Below the pieces are notes generated by a model. That model saw only the letters and a list, made by a program, of their open reading frames with translations, did no database searches and had not been told where the DNA came from. This document shows, one piece after another, positions 59 through 64,000 of a DNA stretch of 64,000 nt. A program made the translations under genes and the position numbers. Every line of letters starts with the position of its first letter. The stretch's first letter is position 1. This DNA is from Oceanipulchritudo coccoides (GTDB lineage: Bacteria; Verrucomicrobiota; Verrucomicrobiia; Opitutales; Oceanipulchritudinaceae), in contig NZ_JAAGNX010000001.1 in the NCBI RefSeq assembly GCF_010500615.1, forward strand, positions 124,001 to 188,000, given 5' to 3'.

Positions 59-1465
59 TTAACCGACCGAGCCTTCCATCTCGAGATCGATAAGGCGCTT
101 CAACTCGACGGAGTACTCCATCGGGAATTCCCGAATCAGGTCATTGACAAATCCGTTCACGGCCAGGCTCATGGCTTCGTCCTCGGGGATCCCCCGTTGC
201 ATCATGTAGAAGATCTGTTCGGCGCTGACCTTTGAAACGCTTGCCTCGTGCTGGACCGTGCTCTGGTTGCCCCGAACGGTGATGGCGGGGTAGGTGTCCG
301 TGCGCGAATTTGAGTTAATCAATAAGGCATCGCACTCCGTGTTGTTCTTACAGTTCTTCAAGTTGCGCGGAATGTTGACCACGCCCCGGTAGGTTGACCT
401 GCCCTCGCCAATTGAGATCGACTTGGAAATGATGTTTGAGGTCGTGTTGTCCGCGGCGTGAATCATCTTCGCACCCGTATCCTGGTGTTGGCCGTCGTGG
501 GCAAGGGCGATCGAAAGGACCTCCCCGCGCGCTCCTGGACCGCGCATGACCACACCCGGGTACTTCATCGTCAGGCGGCTGCCGATGTTACAGTCGATCC
601 ATTTGATTTCGGCATCGTCCATTGCCATGCCGCGCTTGGTGACAAGGTTGAAGACATTGGCAGACCAATTCTGCACCGTGATGTATTGGATTTTCGCACC
701 CTTGAGGGCAACCAATTCGACCACGGCTGAGTGCAGGGTGGAAGTCTCGAATTTGGGAGCGGTACAGCCCTCCATGTAAGTGACCTCGGCGCCTTCATCG
801 GCAATAATCAGTGTTCGCTCAAACTGTCCGAAGTTTTCCGCATTGATTCGAAAATACGCTTGAAGCGGTTGCTTCACCTTCACCCCCGGAGGGATATAGA
901 TAAATGATCCGCCGGAGAAGACTGCGCTGTTGAGCGCACTGAACTTGTTGTCGCCGATGGGAATGACCTTCCCGAACCACTTGCGGAATATTTCCGGGTG
1001 GTCCCTGAGCGCTTCGGTCGGCCCGGTGAAGATTACGCCCTGCTCGGAGAGGTCCTCCTTCATGTTGGAGTAGGAGGCTTCCGAATCAAACTGGGCCTCG
1101 ACGCCGGCAAGATAGGCACGCTCTTTTTCCGGAATGCCGAGGCGCTCGAAAGTCTTCTTGATATCGTCCGGAACCTCATCCCAGGTGCGGGACGGGCGTT
1201 GCCCTTTGGAAAGGTAGTAACGGATCTTGTCGTAATCGATTGAGTTCAGGTCATCGGATGCCCAATGGGTCGGCACCGGCTTGTCCTGAAAAATCTTCAA
1301 CGCCTTCATGCGGAATTCCTTCACCCAGTCTCCCTCCCCCTTGACTTTACAGATGTAATCAATGGTGGATTCATTCAGGCCGACTCCGGCATCAAATTCG
1401 TATGTTGTATCGTAGTGAAAATCCCCTACGTCTCTTTCGACGTTCAGGTCGGGTGTGGTACTCAT
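59..1465 (-). CDS. sufB: SufB, Fe-S cluster assembly scaffold subunit
   Basis: SufB forms the cytosolic SufBCD scaffold on which Fe-S clusters are built before transfer to target proteins. The 468-residue product has the usual SufB length and the conserved C-terminal beta-helix, including the motif NTECDALL around residue 378, whose Cys matches the catalytic Cys405 of E. coli SufB, and the following QHEASVSK segment. It starts 25 bp after the sufC stop, so sufC and sufB are almost certainly cotranscribed. Nothing looks truncated. Recognition rests on strong overall family resemblance. Confidence 0.97.
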
Positions 1466-57720: not shown

Positions 57721-60700
57721 TCACTCCGCCGCCGGCGACTGATGCGTCCGGATGACCCGGTAGAACTTGCGTGGCTCAAGCGCTGGCGGGACAGGGAGCA
57801 AATTTGATTCAATGGTCTCGCCGGCCCAGATCCAATCACTGGAGTCGGTAAAAATGCCGGATTCCAGGTTGCTGGATTCTTGGAGCTTGTAGAAGGCGCC
57901 ACGGATAGTCGTCCAGTCGAGCTGGATACTGTTTGGATCAACGAAGCTTAGTTGGGTCTCCATGGGTTGGCCGGTAATGCTGCCATCGAAGTATTGGGTG
58001 GCGAGTTCCCATGCCTGGATCCCGGCGATTGAGCCCATGATGCGCCCGGGTCCATCGTCGGCGGGAACATGGATACCACCATAAAGCCGTGAGAGGCCGG
58101 CCTGGTCGGCGGCATCAAAATAGGTGGCCCACTGGAGAACCACGTCCATTGTTGGTCCCGGTTCAAACTCAAGAAACTCATTCTCGTGGGCAGTGAAGGT
58201 CTCCATACCGCCGGGAAAGAATTCACTTCCGGTCATGCGGGCGAGGACTTCCGCGGCGGCCCGGCTGAAGGTGCTGTGACCGGAGACATAGCCCGGGAAG
58301 GCGGGGGTGACAAAGGTGTCGCGCTGGTAGGGAAGCCAGTCTGCGGGTAGCATCCAGTCAACCACCCCGAGGGTTTCATTTTCGCCCGCCGACCAGCTCT
58401 TGATGGCAACCTTGCCAACGTGGGCGGCGAGGTGATCGTGCCGTTGTCCGGATGCGGATGATTCTTCCGTGATCACTTCAACAAGGCCGGGAACCAATGG
58501 CAGACCCATCGGGTCGTAGGCCGGACCCTGTGGCTCCGAGGACTGCCCCAGCTGGCCCATGTAGCGGATACTGCTGATCGGGCGGACATAGTCATACACG
58601 CGCTTGCATCCCCATGCGGCGATGGCGGCATCGTGCAAGGCCCCATTCATGGCAAAGTAGACTTTCACATCCCACTCAAGGGGATCGAGCTCGGGGCCGG
58701 TGCCTTCAAACTGTCGGATGAATTCCGGATGATCGTAAAGTTCGTTGGCGAGAGTGTTCCAATGGCCGGGTGGTGTTTCGGAATCGGGTCCGTCGGCCCA
58801 GAATTCCGCAAGGACCCGGCCGAAGTCAGCGTGATTGACCATATTTGGCGCATACGGTTCTCCCGTGTAGGGATTTAATGGATACCCGGTGCCATCATTC
58901 AGTCCCAGTGTATTGTTGCCGATAGCCCCCGGGGAAATGTCGATCATCTCATTGGTATCCGGACCGAGCAGGCTGCTGCGGTAGATGACTTCAAGGTTGC
59001 CGTCCTTGAACTCGGAATCGGTGGCAGTTCCCAACTGGGGCGGCGGTCCCGGGTCGAGGTGCAGGATTTGATCGGGCTGGAAGGAAGTGAAGGCAAAAGG
59101 CCGGACAGCTCCCCAATTGGGACCGAGGAAGGATTGGACGAGGTCGGTTGTTTGCTGGTTCTGGGTGAAGGCCTCCTCAAAGAGAAGGGGCTGCCAGCGG
59201 TTTGGAAAGTCCATCGTTGTACCCGACTCGGCGACGGGGAGGGGATCATTGACGGCGGTGTATGCCTCTCCAAGGAAACCCGATACGTCATCCCATCCAT
59301 CGGAGGAAGTGTAGGCGATCACCGAGGCGGCTACCCGGTTGCCAAGAGCGGCAGGTGTGCTGCCGGCAGTCCCCGTGTTGAGGGGATCGTAGCCCAGTTC
59401 AAGCATCTGGTTGTTGAGGGAGATCAATGTCGTACTGGCGTTGACCGAGTCTTTGTAGCGATCCACCAATACACGATAGGCGGCATGACTGATGGCCTCG
59501 TTCCGTGCCGTATCGATATCTTCGGCAGTGGCACTTTCGTTGTGCAGGAGCCCGGTGGCTTTGCTATCGTAGGCGGCCCAGGTGTCCCACATGGCGACTG
59601 AGGAAGCAAAAAGGTTGCGCGCATGTTTGGTCGGATCCGGGAAATCGATCCGGATGGCGGCAAGGTTTTGTTCATTCCATTTGCGGGCGACGCTTCTCTC
59701 GTCCACTTCTGTTGAGGCCACGACAAGTAAAAGTGATTCAGACCATTCAAGCCCATCAGCTTGATCCCCGGTAAAGATGCTGACCTTCAGCAAGTATTCG
59801 CCGGGCTCCGCCAGGGCAAGCGTGGCAGGGTTGGTATATTCCACGCCATTGATTGTCCACATGGCGGTTGCGCCCTCCGGCAATGCCTCGGCTGGAAAGG
59901 CCGCGGTGAATTCCTCGCCGGGCAGGATTTCCCGCTTTGACAGGGTGGCCTGCGGACTTTTCAAGACAATGTTTTGCCCAGCATCGACATTTCGGATCTC
60001 AGTCTCGTCACCGGTTGTCCAGCGCGCGCGGATTTGGTCGACTGTTGTGCTTGTGCCCAGCCCGAAGTGGGCAATACGGCCCGGTCCGTGGCCATTGAAT
60101 CCGCTGGAGGCATGCAGCTCGCGCATCTGCTCGGTCTCTCCAGTTTGTATGTAGACGCGTGCACCGATGCCGTCCGTGTGGTGGGGGGCGTTCGTCCCCT
60201 CAAGGCGTATGTTGATGAAATTATTCGTATTGACCGTATCATTACGCAGGAGCACGGGCGGAGCAGGCTCATGGCTTAAGTTGGCTTCGCCACCGACGGG
60301 TATCGAGTTGTTGGCAATGAAGATATCCATGTCACCATCGTTGTCATAATCGAAGGCAATGGCGCAGCGGCCCTGTCCGGTATCTGCGGCATCCCCGGAG
60401 AGCTCCGCAATCTCCTCGAAGACATTGTCGCCCGTGTTTTCGAACAGCCGGGAGGGTGTCGTGCCAAGCTGGTTGAAGGTTCCCGGGGGATTATTCAGTC
60501 CCCAGCCGTTGACATGGAAAATGTCGAGGTCGCCATCGTTGTCGAAGTCGGCCATTTCGGCGCCCCAACCCCATCCGCCGTCACGAACCCCCGATTCCTC
60601 GGTGATATCGGTGAATCCACCTGTACCATTGTTCAGGAGAAGACGGTTCCCGGTGGTCAGCCAGACCTCTTGGGCGCTGTCGAACAAGCGGATGGAGGTC

Positions 60701-61542
60701 ATGAATACATCGAGGTCGCCGTCATTGTCGATGTCGCCGACCGCCGATCCCATGCCGTTCTCGATATCGCTGGTGCCCGCCTGAAGAAAGATTCCATTGC
60801 CAAAATTGCGAAACCAGCGGGTGCTTCCGAAGTCGGCTACGAGGAGGAGATCCTGCAAGCGGTCATTATCAATATCAAGAAAGCGGGGAATATAGTCCCA
60901 GTCATTCCGGAGAGTGATGTAAGGCTCCAGTTGGCCATCGCCGACATTTCGGTAAATCTGGAGGAAGTCCTCAGGAATAGGGGTGCGCGAAAATCTCCAT
61001 GAGCCAAGGGACAGCTCAAGCAGGCCGTCATTGTCGATATCGCCCCAGCTGGGACTGGTCACAGTGGCGAGTGGCTGATCGATTTGCTGTTGGTCCACAG
61101 TAAAGGAGCCCGTGCCGTCATTGATCAGCAATGAGTGGGGCGGCTCCGCACCGGAAATAAAGATGTCAATATCGCCATCAGCGTCGTAATCCGCCGCGCA
61201 GGCCCCCATGTAAGGACCGGTTAAGCCAGCCCCGCGCGCGGAGGCCTCGTCCGAGAAAGTGCCGTCCTTCTGGTTGATATACAACAGGTTGGGGGAATCT
61301 CCACCCTGGAGGACATAGAGATCAATCCAGCCATCCCCGTTGAAATCCTCGGCGACCGCCCCGCCGGATATCTGCGCGTAATCCTCAAGAGCGATGCTTT
61401 CAATCGGTTCGTAGGCGTGCGTGTGCAGGATATTTGCCTCGGTCGTGACATCCGTGAACTGCATGGCAGAGAATGCCACGCTGGTCGAGGCGAGTAGGAA
61501 AATACCTGAAATAGGGTGGCAGCGAAACATGGACACTTTCAT
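57721..61542 (-). CDS. FG-GAP/UnbV fused to a vanadium-dependent haloperoxidase
   Basis: A 1273-residue exported protein. The N-terminal ~440 residues have seven or so FG-GAP-like units with calcium-loop motifs (DFNGDGWID, DYDADGDID, DIDNDGDLD); an ASPIC/UnbV segment (residues ~455-540) and an Ig-like part follow. Residues ~640-1190 form a PAP2/vanadium haloperoxidase domain with all key motifs: KRVYDYVRPISS, PGYVSGHST and SRLYGGIHVPADD. The C-terminal end is a beta-sandwich of verrucomicrobial style. It probably halogenates or oxidises substrates outside the cell. Start is the ATG at 61542. Confidence 0.9.
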   Translation of the reverse strand: MKVSMFRCHPISGIFLLASTSVAFSAMQFTDVTTEANILHTHAYEPIESIALEDYAQISGGAVAEDFNGDGWIDLYVLQGGDSPNLLYINQKDGTFSDEASARGAGLTGPYMGACAADYDADGDIDIFISGAEPPHSLLINDGTGSFTVDQQQIDQPLATVTSPSWGDIDNDGLLELSLGSWRFSRTPIPEDFLQIYRNVGDGQLEPYITLRNDWDYIPRFLDIDNDRLQDLLLVADFGSTRWFRNFGNGIFLQAGTSDIENGMGSAVGDIDNDGDLDVFMTSIRLFDSAQEVWLTTGNRLLLNNGTGGFTDITEESGVRDGGWGWGAEMADFDNDGDLDIFHVNGWGLNNPPGTFNQLGTTPSRLFENTGDNVFEEIAELSGDAADTGQGRCAIAFDYDNDGDMDIFIANNSIPVGGEANLSHEPAPPVLLRNDTVNTNNFINIRLEGTNAPHHTDGIGARVYIQTGETEQMRELHASSGFNGHGPGRIAHFGLGTSTTVDQIRARWTTGDETEIRNVDAGQNIVLKSPQATLSKREILPGEEFTAAFPAEALPEGATAMWTINGVEYTNPATLALAEPGEYLLKVSIFTGDQADGLEWSESLLLVVASTEVDERSVARKWNEQNLAAIRIDFPDPTKHARNLFASSVAMWDTWAAYDSKATGLLHNESATAEDIDTARNEAISHAAYRVLVDRYKDSVNASTTLISLNNQMLELGYDPLNTGTAGSTPAALGNRVAASVIAYTSSDGWDDVSGFLGEAYTAVNDPLPVAESGTTMDFPNRWQPLLFEEAFTQNQQTTDLVQSFLGPNWGAVRPFAFTSFQPDQILHLDPGPPPQLGTATDSEFKDGNLEVIYRSSLLGPDTNEMIDISPGAIGNNTLGLNDGTGYPLNPYTGEPYAPNMVNHADFGRVLAEFWADGPDSETPPGHWNTLANELYDHPEFIRQFEGTGPELDPLEWDVKVYFAMNGALHDAAIAAWGCKRVYDYVRPISSIRYMGQLGQSSEPQGPAYDPMGLPLVPGLVEVITEESSASGQRHDHLAAHVGKVAIKSWSAGENETLGVVDWMLPADWLPYQRDTFVTPAFPGYVSGHSTFSRAAAEVLARMTGSEFFPGGMETFTAHENEFLEFEPGPTMDVVLQWATYFDAADQAGLSRLYGGIHVPADDGPGRIMGSIAGIQAWELATQYFDGSITGQPMETQLSFVDPNSIQLDWTTIRGAFYKLQESSNLESGIFTDSSDWIWAGETIESNLLPVPPALEPRKFYRVIRTHQSPAAE

Positions 61543-61674
61543 CAAGATGCACGTTAATTTGCTCCATTATTTTCCATCTGCAAACGGAAATTAGGGAATC
61601 CGGATGTGTGGACCGCGCACAGGAAGGCGCTTATGACCGCCCCAAGGCCGGACTCCAACTTATATTTTTTAAAG

Positions 61675-61720
61675 TGGAGCCAGCTGTCAGACTCGAACTG
61701 ACGACCTGCTGATTACAAAT
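61675..61720 (-). pseudogene. tRNA-Thr 3' half at an integration junction (att site)
   Basis: On the minus strand the sequence reads GATTTGTAATCAGCAGG..., ending in TGGCTCCA. It matches the second half of tRNA-Thr(TGT): anticodon loop TTTGTAA, T arm GTCAG/CTGAC with TTCGAGT, acceptor strand and an encoded CCA. The homology stops sharply at 61720 inside the anticodon stem, so the 5' half is missing. It is not a working tRNA. It marks the left junction of the integrated element. Confidence 0.88.
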
Positions 61721-61805
61721 CTAAATTTCACCTGTCGATAATTTTCCTGTTGTGTCTTCCCGTGACGCTTGAATACTCAGTAAGAAAGAGGATTGAAGCG
61801 TTGTC

Positions 61806-63248
61806 ATGGATGATCAAGTAAAGACAGGTGTGGACGAGTTAACCCGGTCAAATCCCGGTAAAGTTACCGGGTTAAAAGAGCCAGCGAAAAAGACAAGGTC
61901 GGCAGGCTCCCGCAAGCACCGGACGAAGGGAAAGGATCAAGCTGGATACTGGCTCGATAAAAACCGCCTCGTTCAGAGGGGGAAAAGCACAGAATATTAC
62001 GCCCGGATCTATTGGGATAACCGGGATAGATGGGTGAGCTTTGGATCAAGTAATAAGCGAATTGCCGCAGATAGGGCCGCAGCTTTTTACGGGAGACTGA
62101 AGTTTGAAGGATGGGAGGCCGCTTTCTCTCTCATTAGGCCAAAGAAGGCAGCATCTGTCACCGTGGGGGAATTCATTGAGGCCGCAGAAGAGGCCCTGAC
62201 CCATCCGGGCCGAGGTGGGAAGATCCCGAACCCTGACACAGTGAGGCAATACGCAATTGCTTTTCGTAAGGTTGCCGGAGACGTGGGAGGAGTTCGTAAG
62301 ACCGCAAAGCGATTCCATGGAAAGGGATCTGAGGTATACCGGAAACGAGTGAATGCTCTTCCTCTCTCGAAGATCACGAAAGAGGCCGTGGAGGGATGGA
62401 GATCGAAGCGGCTCAAGAAAGCCGGAACCGATCCGCTGAAGCTAAAGGCTGCAAGAGCAACCTGCAATTCCTACCTGAGATCCTGCCGAGCCTTATTCTC
62501 TTCAAATGTCCTTGAACGGTTGCAAAGGAAGGGAATCGAGCTGAATCAATCACCATTTGCAGAAATCACTCCGATCAAGGAGGGGGATCACCGTTACCGT
62601 TCTTCCATTTCGCGGGAGGTGCTGGTTCAACAGGCAATCCGGGAACTGAAAGTTGCCATGCCGGATCCGGAAGAAAGGACCCTCGAAGCTAAGGCGAAAC
62701 GGGACAAAAACGAGCAATTCAAGGTGTTCCTGCTGGCTCTATTTTGTGGCCTCCGGAGGGGAGAAATTGACTTCCTGACATGGGGACAGATTCACCTTGC
62801 TGAAGGATTCATCCGGATAGAGGAAACTCGCTTCCATAAGCCGAAGTCTGACACTTCCTGCCGGGATGTCCCCCTTGATCCGCAAACGGTGGACATGATC
62901 CGGAGTTACCTTCCTTTCGCAGCGGGAGCTTTCTTTTTAGAGGCTGAAGCCAAACCGGAGGGGAGCCGGACGGATAGGGGTTACAGGTGCAACCGTCACT
63001 TCAAGGCCCTGACTGCATGGCTCAGGAAAAAGGGCATGGATTCAAAGGCCCCAATCCATGACTTGCGGAGAGAATTCGGGAGCTTTGTCTGTGAGAACAC
63101 AGGCATTCATGCTGCCTCAGTTATTCTCGGACACTCCGGGGTTGCTGTAACGGAAAAGTATTACCTCGACGTATCACGGAAGACACCTCCAGGAATCGGG
63201 AAGCTCCTCGGAGGCACTAAAGTGCGGGCCTCTAAACAAGCAGGGTAG
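61806..63248 (+). CDS. Tyrosine recombinase / integrase
   Basis: A 480-residue site-specific recombinase. The catalytic residues are visible: Arg in FCGLRRGEIDFLTWG (about residue 318), the HDLRREFGS box with His-x-x-Arg (about 418), His in ILGHSGVAVTEK and the nucleophile Tyr in KYYLDVSRKT (about 449-450). A SAM-like core-binding domain lies at about 110-230, and the N-terminus is basic. Integrating at an anticodon loop fits one known subfamily of integrases. It is the first gene of the element and points into it. Confidence 0.93.
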   Translation: MDDQVKTGVDELTRSNPGKVTGLKEPAKKTRSAGSRKHRTKGKDQAGYWLDKNRLVQRGKSTEYYARIYWDNRDRWVSFGSSNKRIAADRAAAFYGRLKFEGWEAAFSLIRPKKAASVTVGEFIEAAEEALTHPGRGGKIPNPDTVRQYAIAFRKVAGDVGGVRKTAKRFHGKGSEVYRKRVNALPLSKITKEAVEGWRSKRLKKAGTDPLKLKAARATCNSYLRSCRALFSSNVLERLQRKGIELNQSPFAEITPIKEGDHRYRSSISREVLVQQAIRELKVAMPDPEERTLEAKAKRDKNEQFKVFLLALFCGLRRGEIDFLTWGQIHLAEGFIRIEETRFHKPKSDTSCRDVPLDPQTVDMIRSYLPFAAGAFFLEAEAKPEGSRTDRGYRCNRHFKALTAWLRKKGMDSKAPIHDLRREFGSFVCENTGIHAASVILGHSGVAVTEKYYLDVSRKTPPGIGKLLGGTKVRASKQAG

Positions 63249-63392
63249 GATTGTTTGTTTTTTTACAGCTTTCCGTGGTCAAAACCTTGCAAATTTATAT
63301 AAGCGTCTTTACCCACTTTTACAGACCTGTCCCAGCATGTCTTTAAACCAAACACACAAGCTCAGTTTTTATTAAGGAAGGGAAATATTCTT
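63249..63392. other. Short intergenic region of the element
   Basis: A 144-bp A+T-rich gap between the integrase and the next gene. It has T-rich stretches (GTTTGTTTTTTT) just after the integrase that may act as a terminator. A good ribosome-binding site (AAGGAAGGGAAA) is found 8-10 bp before the next start. Confidence 0.4.
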
Positions 63393-64000
63393 ATGCCCGA
63401 TGCAGAATGGCTCAAACCGATTGTTAGTGACTCGAATAAACTGAAACGAGAAGCTGCCCGAAGGAGAAAACCTCATCAGCAAGATTCAGTCGCCAAATCT
63501 GTACTTCAGGCATATCTGGATGAAGGTTGGGAAGAAGACATTCCGTTAAAAATAAAAGTGCGAATCAAGAAGCCTTGGACGCACGATGAGAAACTGGAGA
63601 ACTTCTCATGGTATTTAATGTATCTTCTTGGATATCCTGAAATTAGCTCAGGCAGAAATTTTCAGGTAAAAATTCAGAGGAAAGGCGCTGAACCATTCAA
63701 CAAGCAAATCGACGTTCTCGCGAAGGATGAGGAGACAGTGATTGTTACTGAGTGTAAGTCATCTGCACGGATAACGAAAAAGAGCCTTCAGAAAGATATC
63801 GAAGAATTTGCCAGTCTGCAAAAGCCGATTTCTAATGCGATTAAAAAGCACTACGGAAATGGCTTCAAGCCAAAGATTATTTGGTTGTTTATCACCCATA
63901 ATATTGCTTGGTCAAAGCCGGATAGAGAGAGGGCTGCAGGCTCCAACATCAACATCATAACTGAAAAGGAACTTAGGTACTACTTGCAGATTGCGGATCA
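63393..64000 (+). CDS. REase-fold protein resembling DGQHR/DndB-like defence proteins (partial)
   Basis: The frame stays open for 202 codons to the window edge. Residues about 70-150 have a restriction-endonuclease-like core: FSWYLMYLLGYPEISSGRNF, then QIDVLAKDEETVIVTECKSS, i.e. an Asp followed by E-x-K as in PD-(D/E)xK nucleases. The region KPKIIWLFITHNIAWSKPDR and ITEKELRYYLQIAD recalls, from memory, the N-terminus of proteins with a DGQHR domain (related to DndB of DNA phosphorothioation). The DGQHR part would lie beyond 64000. A clear ribosome-binding site sets the start. Confidence 0.7.
   Translation, partial: MPDAEWLKPIVSDSNKLKREAARRRKPHQQDSVAKSVLQAYLDEGWEEDIPLKIKVRIKKPWTHDEKLENFSWYLMYLLGYPEISSGRNFQVKIQRKGAEPFNKQIDVLAKDEETVIVTECKSSARITKKSLQKDIEEFASLQKPISNAIKKHYGNGFKPKIIWLFITHNIAWSKPDRERAAGSNINIITEKELRYYLQIAD

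Follow-up and report, generated by a model that had tools for sequence, protein, structure and literature searches.

The 64,000-nucleotide stretch of the Oceanipulchritudo coccoides genome analysed here (the window; G000:C1:124001-188000) ends abruptly within an open reading frame lying directly behind an integrase gene. This raises the question of what the interrupted gene encodes, and whether it is part of a defence system carried by a mobile element, as had been proposed in a sequence-only reading that saw in it a nuclease-like core and a kinship to DGQHR/DndB-type proteins. The interruption is that of the window and not of the contig, since C1 continues. The region examined was extended to C1:204000 (locus L004; L004 position + 60000 = window coordinate), and the DGQHR domain and neighbouring genes were sought beyond position 64000. 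The complete gene (gene 1) specifies a 775-aa protein bearing the DGQHR motif and a predicted HEPN end, and is followed by a gene for a Dam-type methyltransferase (gene 2).

The gene lies on a mobile island integrated at a tRNA-Thr gene

Beside the integrase gene lies attL, which reproduces the 3′ part of tRNA-Thr(tgt) exactly over 47 bp; the match does not extend past these 47 bp on either side. The intact tRNA gene is found 10.6 kb downstream of attL. The 47-bp repeats at attL and attR therefore delimit an island of ∼10.6 kb, from window position 61722 to about 72316, only the left 2.3 kb of which fall inside the window (Table 1). An integrase and its cargo are thus enclosed by identical direct repeats derived from the 3′ part of the tRNA, as is typical of tRNA-integrated mobile islands; together with the PF00589 match of the integrase, this bears out the earlier proposals of a tRNA-targeted integrase and a mobile island. 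Over two cargo stretches of the island the G+C content drops to about 40%, from 53–57%.

Table 1. Features of the island and predicted parts of the gene 1 protein
Feature	Position in L004, or residues	Window position	Strand	Remarks
attL, 47 bp identical to the tRNA-Thr(tgt) 3′ part		61675..61721	-	Exact 47/47 identity
Tyrosine-recombinase integrase gene, 480 aa, beside attL	L004:1806-3248	61806..63248	+	PF00589 2.2e-11; phrog_1 integrase 2.4e-33
Gene 1, DGQHR protein, 775 aa	L004:3393-5720	63393-65720	+	First 202 codons at window 63393..64000
Gene 1, N-terminal part	residues about 3-63
Gene 1, PD-(D/E)xK domain	residues about 64-197			D107, E120, C121, K122
Gene 1, ParB/DGQHR fold	residues about 233-383	beyond window		DGQHR motif at 337-341
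Gene 1, helical linker	between ParB/DGQHR fold and HEPN	beyond window
Gene 1, HEPN domain, Swt1-type, R-x4-H	residues about 613-768	beyond window		N728, R731, H736
Gene 2, Dam-type m6A methyltransferase	L004:5713-6528	65713-66528	+
Excisionase-like HTH gene	L004:6927-7142		+
Fis-like HTH gene	L004:7362-7793		+
270-aa protein gene	L004:7796-8608		+
573-aa protein gene	L004:8728-10449	68728-70449	+	No family match
201-aa protein gene	L004:10501-11106		-	No family
TIGR04255 family protein gene	L004:11274-12092		-
Intact tRNA-Thr(tgt) with attR	L004:12270-12345	72270-72345		G000:C1:196270-196345; ARAGORN on L004

Some further features of the region deserve mention. The N-terminal part of the 573-aa island protein reads like an HUH Rep (LHVHSV), while its residues 287-537 match a separate ORF of 301 aa that contains a VECKRL motif (L111:5871-6776), which suggests a Rep-nuclease fusion, located at a sharp G+C step. 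The genes for the TIGR04255 family protein and then the 201-aa protein (L004:10501-12092, minus strand) are low in G+C and adjoin attR; the two may constitute a second cargo module. Just outside the island, window positions 57721-61545 (minus strand) specify a 1274-aa protein with FG-GAP repeats and an ASPIC/UnbV region, the C-terminal part of which is vanadium-chloroperoxidase-like (VCPO_2nd 2e-7).

Gene 1 specifies a DGQHR protein with two predicted nuclease domains

Sequence profiles recognised the middle of the gene 1 protein only, namely TIGR03187 (DGQHR; 149.8 bits against a cut-off of 58.85, 1.2e-43, residues 232-528) and PF14072 (DndB; 42.4 bits against a cut-off of 29.1, 6.2e-11, residues 231-388). 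With both profiles above their cut-offs, a predicted ParB fold, and DGQHR present in all 88 homologues described below, the protein belongs to the DGQHR/DndB superfamily, and the domain anticipated past the end of the window is indeed found there. The earlier label ‘DndB-type’ thus stands at superfamily level, but not at that of the individual families: DndB itself was rejected (equivalog TIGR03233, 20.9 bits versus a cut-off of 328; no dnd matches among the island genes), as was DpdB (equivalog NF041060, 76.4 bits versus a cut-off of 300; no TGT-like gene among those of the island). PADLOC 2.0 returned no full-length defence model for gene 1, its matches being confined to DpdB (residues 226-539) and to weak nuclease fragments, and a sequence search of the PDB rendered no match.

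The remainder of the protein was examined in an AlphaFold2 model built with 66 homologues (two plasmid-collection rows were left out; mean pLDDT 88.5, pTM 0.71). Residues 64-197 of this model superimposed on AF1548 with a Z of 11.8 (2.2 Å over 111 residues); AF1548 is taken to have a PD-(D/E)xK fold, judging by the company of matches in which it appeared. Residues 3-220 matched the nuclease half of Card1, Can2, Cdn1 and VC1899 (Z about 9–10; about 9.7 for Card1, Can2 and Cdn1), and the model also matched Nt.BspD6I (Z 8.3). The core of this domain, IDVLAKDEETVIVTECK (residues 106-122), contains D107 and E120, conserved in 98% and 93%, respectively, of the 88 aligned homologues. The conservation of D107, E120, C121 and DGQHR (the latter two at 100%), combined with the fold matches of the model, indicates that the motif is not a chance occurrence, in agreement with the nuclease core noticed at the outset. 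D107, E120 and K122 being conserved on a PD-(D/E)xK fold, an endonuclease active site is predicted. The cysteine of the E-C-K motif (window 63753-63755) was invariant even in homologues in which E120 and K122 are lost.

Residues 233-383 of the model matched the NTP-binding domain of ParB, Noc, PadC and KorB (Z up to 7.7; 7.6–7.7 for ParB and Noc), so that a ParB-type NTP-binding fold is predicted inside a nuclease protein. The last third of gene 1, folded alone (pLDDT 90.6), gave no significant match with Foldseek alone, while VIA-align placed AbiF (Z 8.8) and Csm6′ (Z 8.2) at the top, with another Csm6 and LsoA lower, although Z values near 8 are weak on their own for helical bundles and call for caution. 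The HEPN_Swt1 profile PF18731 was matched by 14 of 52 homologous C-termini (best 1.2e-6), and within the predicted helical bundle the R-x4-H motif of the HEPN superfamily was present in 83/88 homologues (R731 and H736, 94%; N728, 92%). The C-terminus is called HEPN on the basis of these profile matches, the motif and the VIA-align results taken together.

Gene 2 encodes a Dam-type methyltransferase overlapping gene 1

Gene 2 begins about 1.7 kb past the end of the window, 8 nt before the end of gene 1, and its start ATG overlaps the gene 1 stop codon as ATGCCTGA. The sequence-only reading had seen neither dndCDE nor any other partner; the island does lack dnd genes, but an adenine methyltransferase partner overlaps gene 1. 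Gene 2 scored 234 bits against TIGR00571 (cut-off 114.85), its best PDB relative is DpnM (2e-54), and a methyltransferase with an intact catalytic motif thus lies beside the predicted nuclease, an arrangement characteristic of restriction-modification (RM) systems. EcoDam contacts GATC through K9, L122, R124 and P134 (PMC10073500), and in alignments gene 2 retains all four residues. Given this, the kinship to DpnM, and the fact that gene 2 is the sole D12 methyltransferase in the host genome, its target is likely to be GATC. Within the window, GATC occurs at 0.92 of its expected frequency and is thus not avoided, a result that speaks neither for nor against this assignment.

The pair is conserved across phyla

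Homologues were sought in one genome per species with an alignment, and in viral contigs, plasmids and the host phylum. The set analysed comprised 88 near-full-length homologues, 307 further relatives from the genome scan being left out; many loci come from metagenome assemblies, in which split frames may be errors. An m6A methyltransferase gene was present within 500 bp in 73/88 cases and fused in frame in one, i.e. adjacent or fused in 74 of the 86 homologues with uncut context. The remainder comprised 11 with radical-SAM and/or GHKL neighbours, 2 on cut contigs, and one with neither type of neighbour (L051, in whose genome two D12 enzymes are encoded elsewhere). The methyltransferase gene mostly lies downstream of the DGQHR gene (upstream in about ten), and 46 of 54 downstream Dam genes overlap it, most often by 4 nt. 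Distances among DGQHR proteins correlate with those among their methyltransferases (Mantel r 0.62; 0/2000 permutations as high). The partner can belong to three non-orthologous m6A families, Dam/D12 in most cases, MT-A70 (PF05063, DPPW) in five and a second D12 family in three, and these are scattered over the tree, with at least four label changes for MT-A70 and two for the second D12 family.

The pair is, as judged from the sequences, a conserved unit found in roughly twelve phyla, archaea among them, and the DGQHR protein tree mixes these phyla. The nearest relatives of the window protein, from a Thermodesulfobacteriota MAG and an unplaced MAG, are 79% identical to it, while relatives from its own phylum show 57–67% identity, so the pair moves horizontally. 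In the host phylum, any match was found in just 6 of 387 sampled genomes. Nine near-full-length homologues are on IMG/VR contigs, while the phage records searched contained no full-length gene 1 relative, only DGQHR-domain matches; gene 1 is therefore not an ordinary phage gene. Among 125 proteins flanking the pair, few PADLOC defence matches and many housekeeping genes were found, and this mixed neighbourhood gives no clear defence-island signal. The earlier suggestion that the gene might open an uncharacterised system with further genes agrees with the conserved methyltransferase-DGQHR pair, while its role in defence we infer.

The 11 homologues with a gene for a (B12-binding) radical-SAM enzyme and/or a GHKL/Hsp90-like ATPase (L011, L012, L085, L087-L089, L091, L093, L094, L096 and L103) form a sister group in which the nuclease lysine is usually lost (ECT). 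The lysine was retained in 63/73 methyltransferase-linked members versus 2/11 of these (Fisher p 1e-5, an optimistic value since the sequences are related). On two plasmids and in L093, the radical-SAM/GHKL-linked DGQHR gene is also accompanied by a second, short DGQHR protein. The different partners and the usual loss of the lysine mean that the DGQHR protein may have a non-restriction role; the clade possibly represents a radical-SAM DNA-modification system.

A restriction-modification-like module is the probable explanation

The pair is probably a two-gene, mobile, restriction-modification-like defence module under NTP control, possibly with RNase-mediated suicide. Gene 2 would methylate adenines in the host DNA, presumably at GATC, and so protect it. 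The ParB-like DGQHR domain of gene 1 would bind an NTP and serve as a switch or clamp reading the DNA; ParB-fold proteins are known to bind CTP, ATP or GTP, and a DndB-like protein bound ATP and GTP (PMC12704722). On meeting unmethylated DNA, such as that of an invading phage, this domain would license the N-terminal PD-(D/E)xK nuclease to cleave. The Swt1-type HEPN domain would be a second effector, most likely a fallback RNase halting growth should restriction fail. RM systems carrying, or coupled with, HEPN suicide domains have been described (PMC3506569).

The pattern of decay points to gene 1 as the restriction side of the pair. The nuclease motif was broken in six full-length Dam-linked proteins, all six partners of which had an intact DPPY; across all Dam partners, DPPY was found in 60/61 (DPPF in the other). 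Such one-sided decay, with the nuclease motif lost and DPPY kept, is what would be expected if the nuclease were toxic to cells lacking the methyltransferase. The filling of the adjacent slot by any m6A methyltransferase is likewise as expected if the mark alone matters. About ten methyltransferase-linked members lack a canonical E-C-K, so the nuclease appears to be dispensable in some.

This loss of E120 or K122 in some members is also compatible with gene 1 being a modification subunit or regulator that loads or limits the adjacent DNA-modifying enzyme, its PD-(D/E)xK and HEPN folds merely binding nucleic acid. The sole characterised DGQHR proteins do act on the modification side, DpdB as a ParB-like ATPase helping to insert a modified base and DndB as a regulator (PMC10853773, PMC12839542), and the partners of DGQHR proteins are nearly always methyltransferases or radical-SAM enzymes. 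Retention of D...ECK in 63/73 methyltransferase-linked members, and of R-x4-H in nearly all homologues, would however be unexpected of folds that merely bind. Moreover, Dam-family methyltransferases, such as EcoDam and DpnM, function alone as single proteins. We therefore regard a modification subunit as unlikely.

The HEPN motif bears on another alternative, that of methylation-guarded abortive infection, in which the DGQHR protein would respond to an infection signal, or to m6A that is lost or in excess, and would act chiefly by killing or stalling the cell via the predicted HEPN RNase, DNA cutting being secondary or absent. R-x4-H is more conserved than the E-C-K triad, it is retained in six proteins with a broken nuclease motif (L024, L032, L038, L045, L067 and L079), and the RM systems with HEPN suicide domains mentioned above provide precedents. 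However, L015, L102 and L105 are without R-x4-H while retaining both D...ECK and the methyltransferase. Neither of the two effectors is thus present in all members, and mainly abortive action seems improbable. A selfish pair stabilising the island by post-segregational killing, rather than defending against phages, would fit its location on an integrase island, its sporadic distribution in the host phylum and its spread by transfer, as seen in the 79% identity to a protein of another phylum. We consider this very improbable as the whole explanation; neither is it exclusive with defence, since R-M pairs commonly both stabilise their element and defend the host.

Starting from the restriction-modification-like reading, a bolder version can be offered tentatively, as a possibility that we hold to be rather doubtful: the pair would represent a new restriction-modification class in which a ParB-type NTP clamp or sliding reader, and not a helicase or translocase, checks adenine methylation and fires the PD-(D/E)xK DNase and the HEPN RNase of one polypeptide, while in the sister clade the same reader chassis would partner a B12 radical-SAM enzyme by which DNA is marked.

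Relation to known systems

The restriction-modification-like module resembles Type II RM systems of the DpnII/MboI kind, directed at GATC, in that a Dam-type m6A gene (here with DpnM as its best PDB relative) adjoins or overlaps a gene for a PD-(D/E)xK-domain protein. It differs from them in that the restriction-side protein is 775 aa long, contains both a HEPN domain and a ParB-like NTPase fold, and has no counterpart among the PADLOC restriction-enzyme models. Type II enzymes work without NTP and have no NTP domain; the NTP-binding fold predicted in gene 1 argues against placing it among them. The GmrSD, SspE and BrxU proteins, which act in defence, unite a nuclease with a ParB/Srx-like NTPase fold bearing a DGQxR motif in a single polypeptide (PMC4619093), and in this they resemble gene 1. 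In them, however, a DUF262 NTPase is joined to an HNH nuclease, whereas in gene 1 a PD-(D/E)xK domain precedes the NTPase and a HEPN domain follows it. Membership of this group was rejected, since no Pfam match to DUF262 or DUF1524 (HNH) was found at E<=1. Gene 1 is also paired with its own methyltransferase, and so should act on unmodified rather than modified DNA.

With DndB (phosphorothioation) and DpdB (7-deazaguanine), gene 1 shares the TIGR03187 DGQHR domain and a tie to DNA modification, but these are stand-alone regulators or ATPases without a nuclease or HEPN domain. The closest structural matches of its nuclease part, the CRISPR ancillary nucleases Card1, Can2 and Cdn1, have their own CARF sensor answering to cyclic oligoadenylate, in the place of which gene 1 has the ParB-like domain. 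PD-lambda-5 is a compact system combining RM with abortive infection, formed by a Dam-like methyltransferase and a suspected effector (Vassallo 2022; PMC9519451). Gene 2 matched PADLOC PD-Lambda-5_B (2.6e-9), a similarity that is generic only, and gene 1 matches no PD-lambda-5 model.

No description of a DGQHR-methyltransferase pair was found in the parts of the open-access literature covered, subscription papers being outside the scope of the search; the module is apparently widespread and undescribed, its novelty being provisional. DGQHR proteins are widely annotated, DndB and DpdB being those with a characterised role. In the present family the domain shares one chain with two predicted nucleases and is tied to an adenine methyltransferase that can be exchanged. 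The pair makes it possible to ask directly if modification-sensitive restriction is driven by ParB-like NTP switches; were this so, restriction would gain a type that is under NTP control, combines a DNase with an RNase and is absent from the PADLOC 2.0 models.

Two individual loci are worth recording. In Methylocystis sp. H62, a 929-aa ORF (L090:7965-10754) joins DGQHR residues 1-561 to a Dam methyltransferase, without the HEPN end or the methyltransferase's first motif; it represents a natural fusion or, alternatively, the remnant of a deletion. In a Verrucomicrobia genome, the genes directly upstream of the pair (L014:3664-7851) encode a calcineurin-like phosphoesterase, an ATPase-like protein and a protein with a weak match to CARF_Card1 (PF23400 8e-4), and are perhaps another defence operon.
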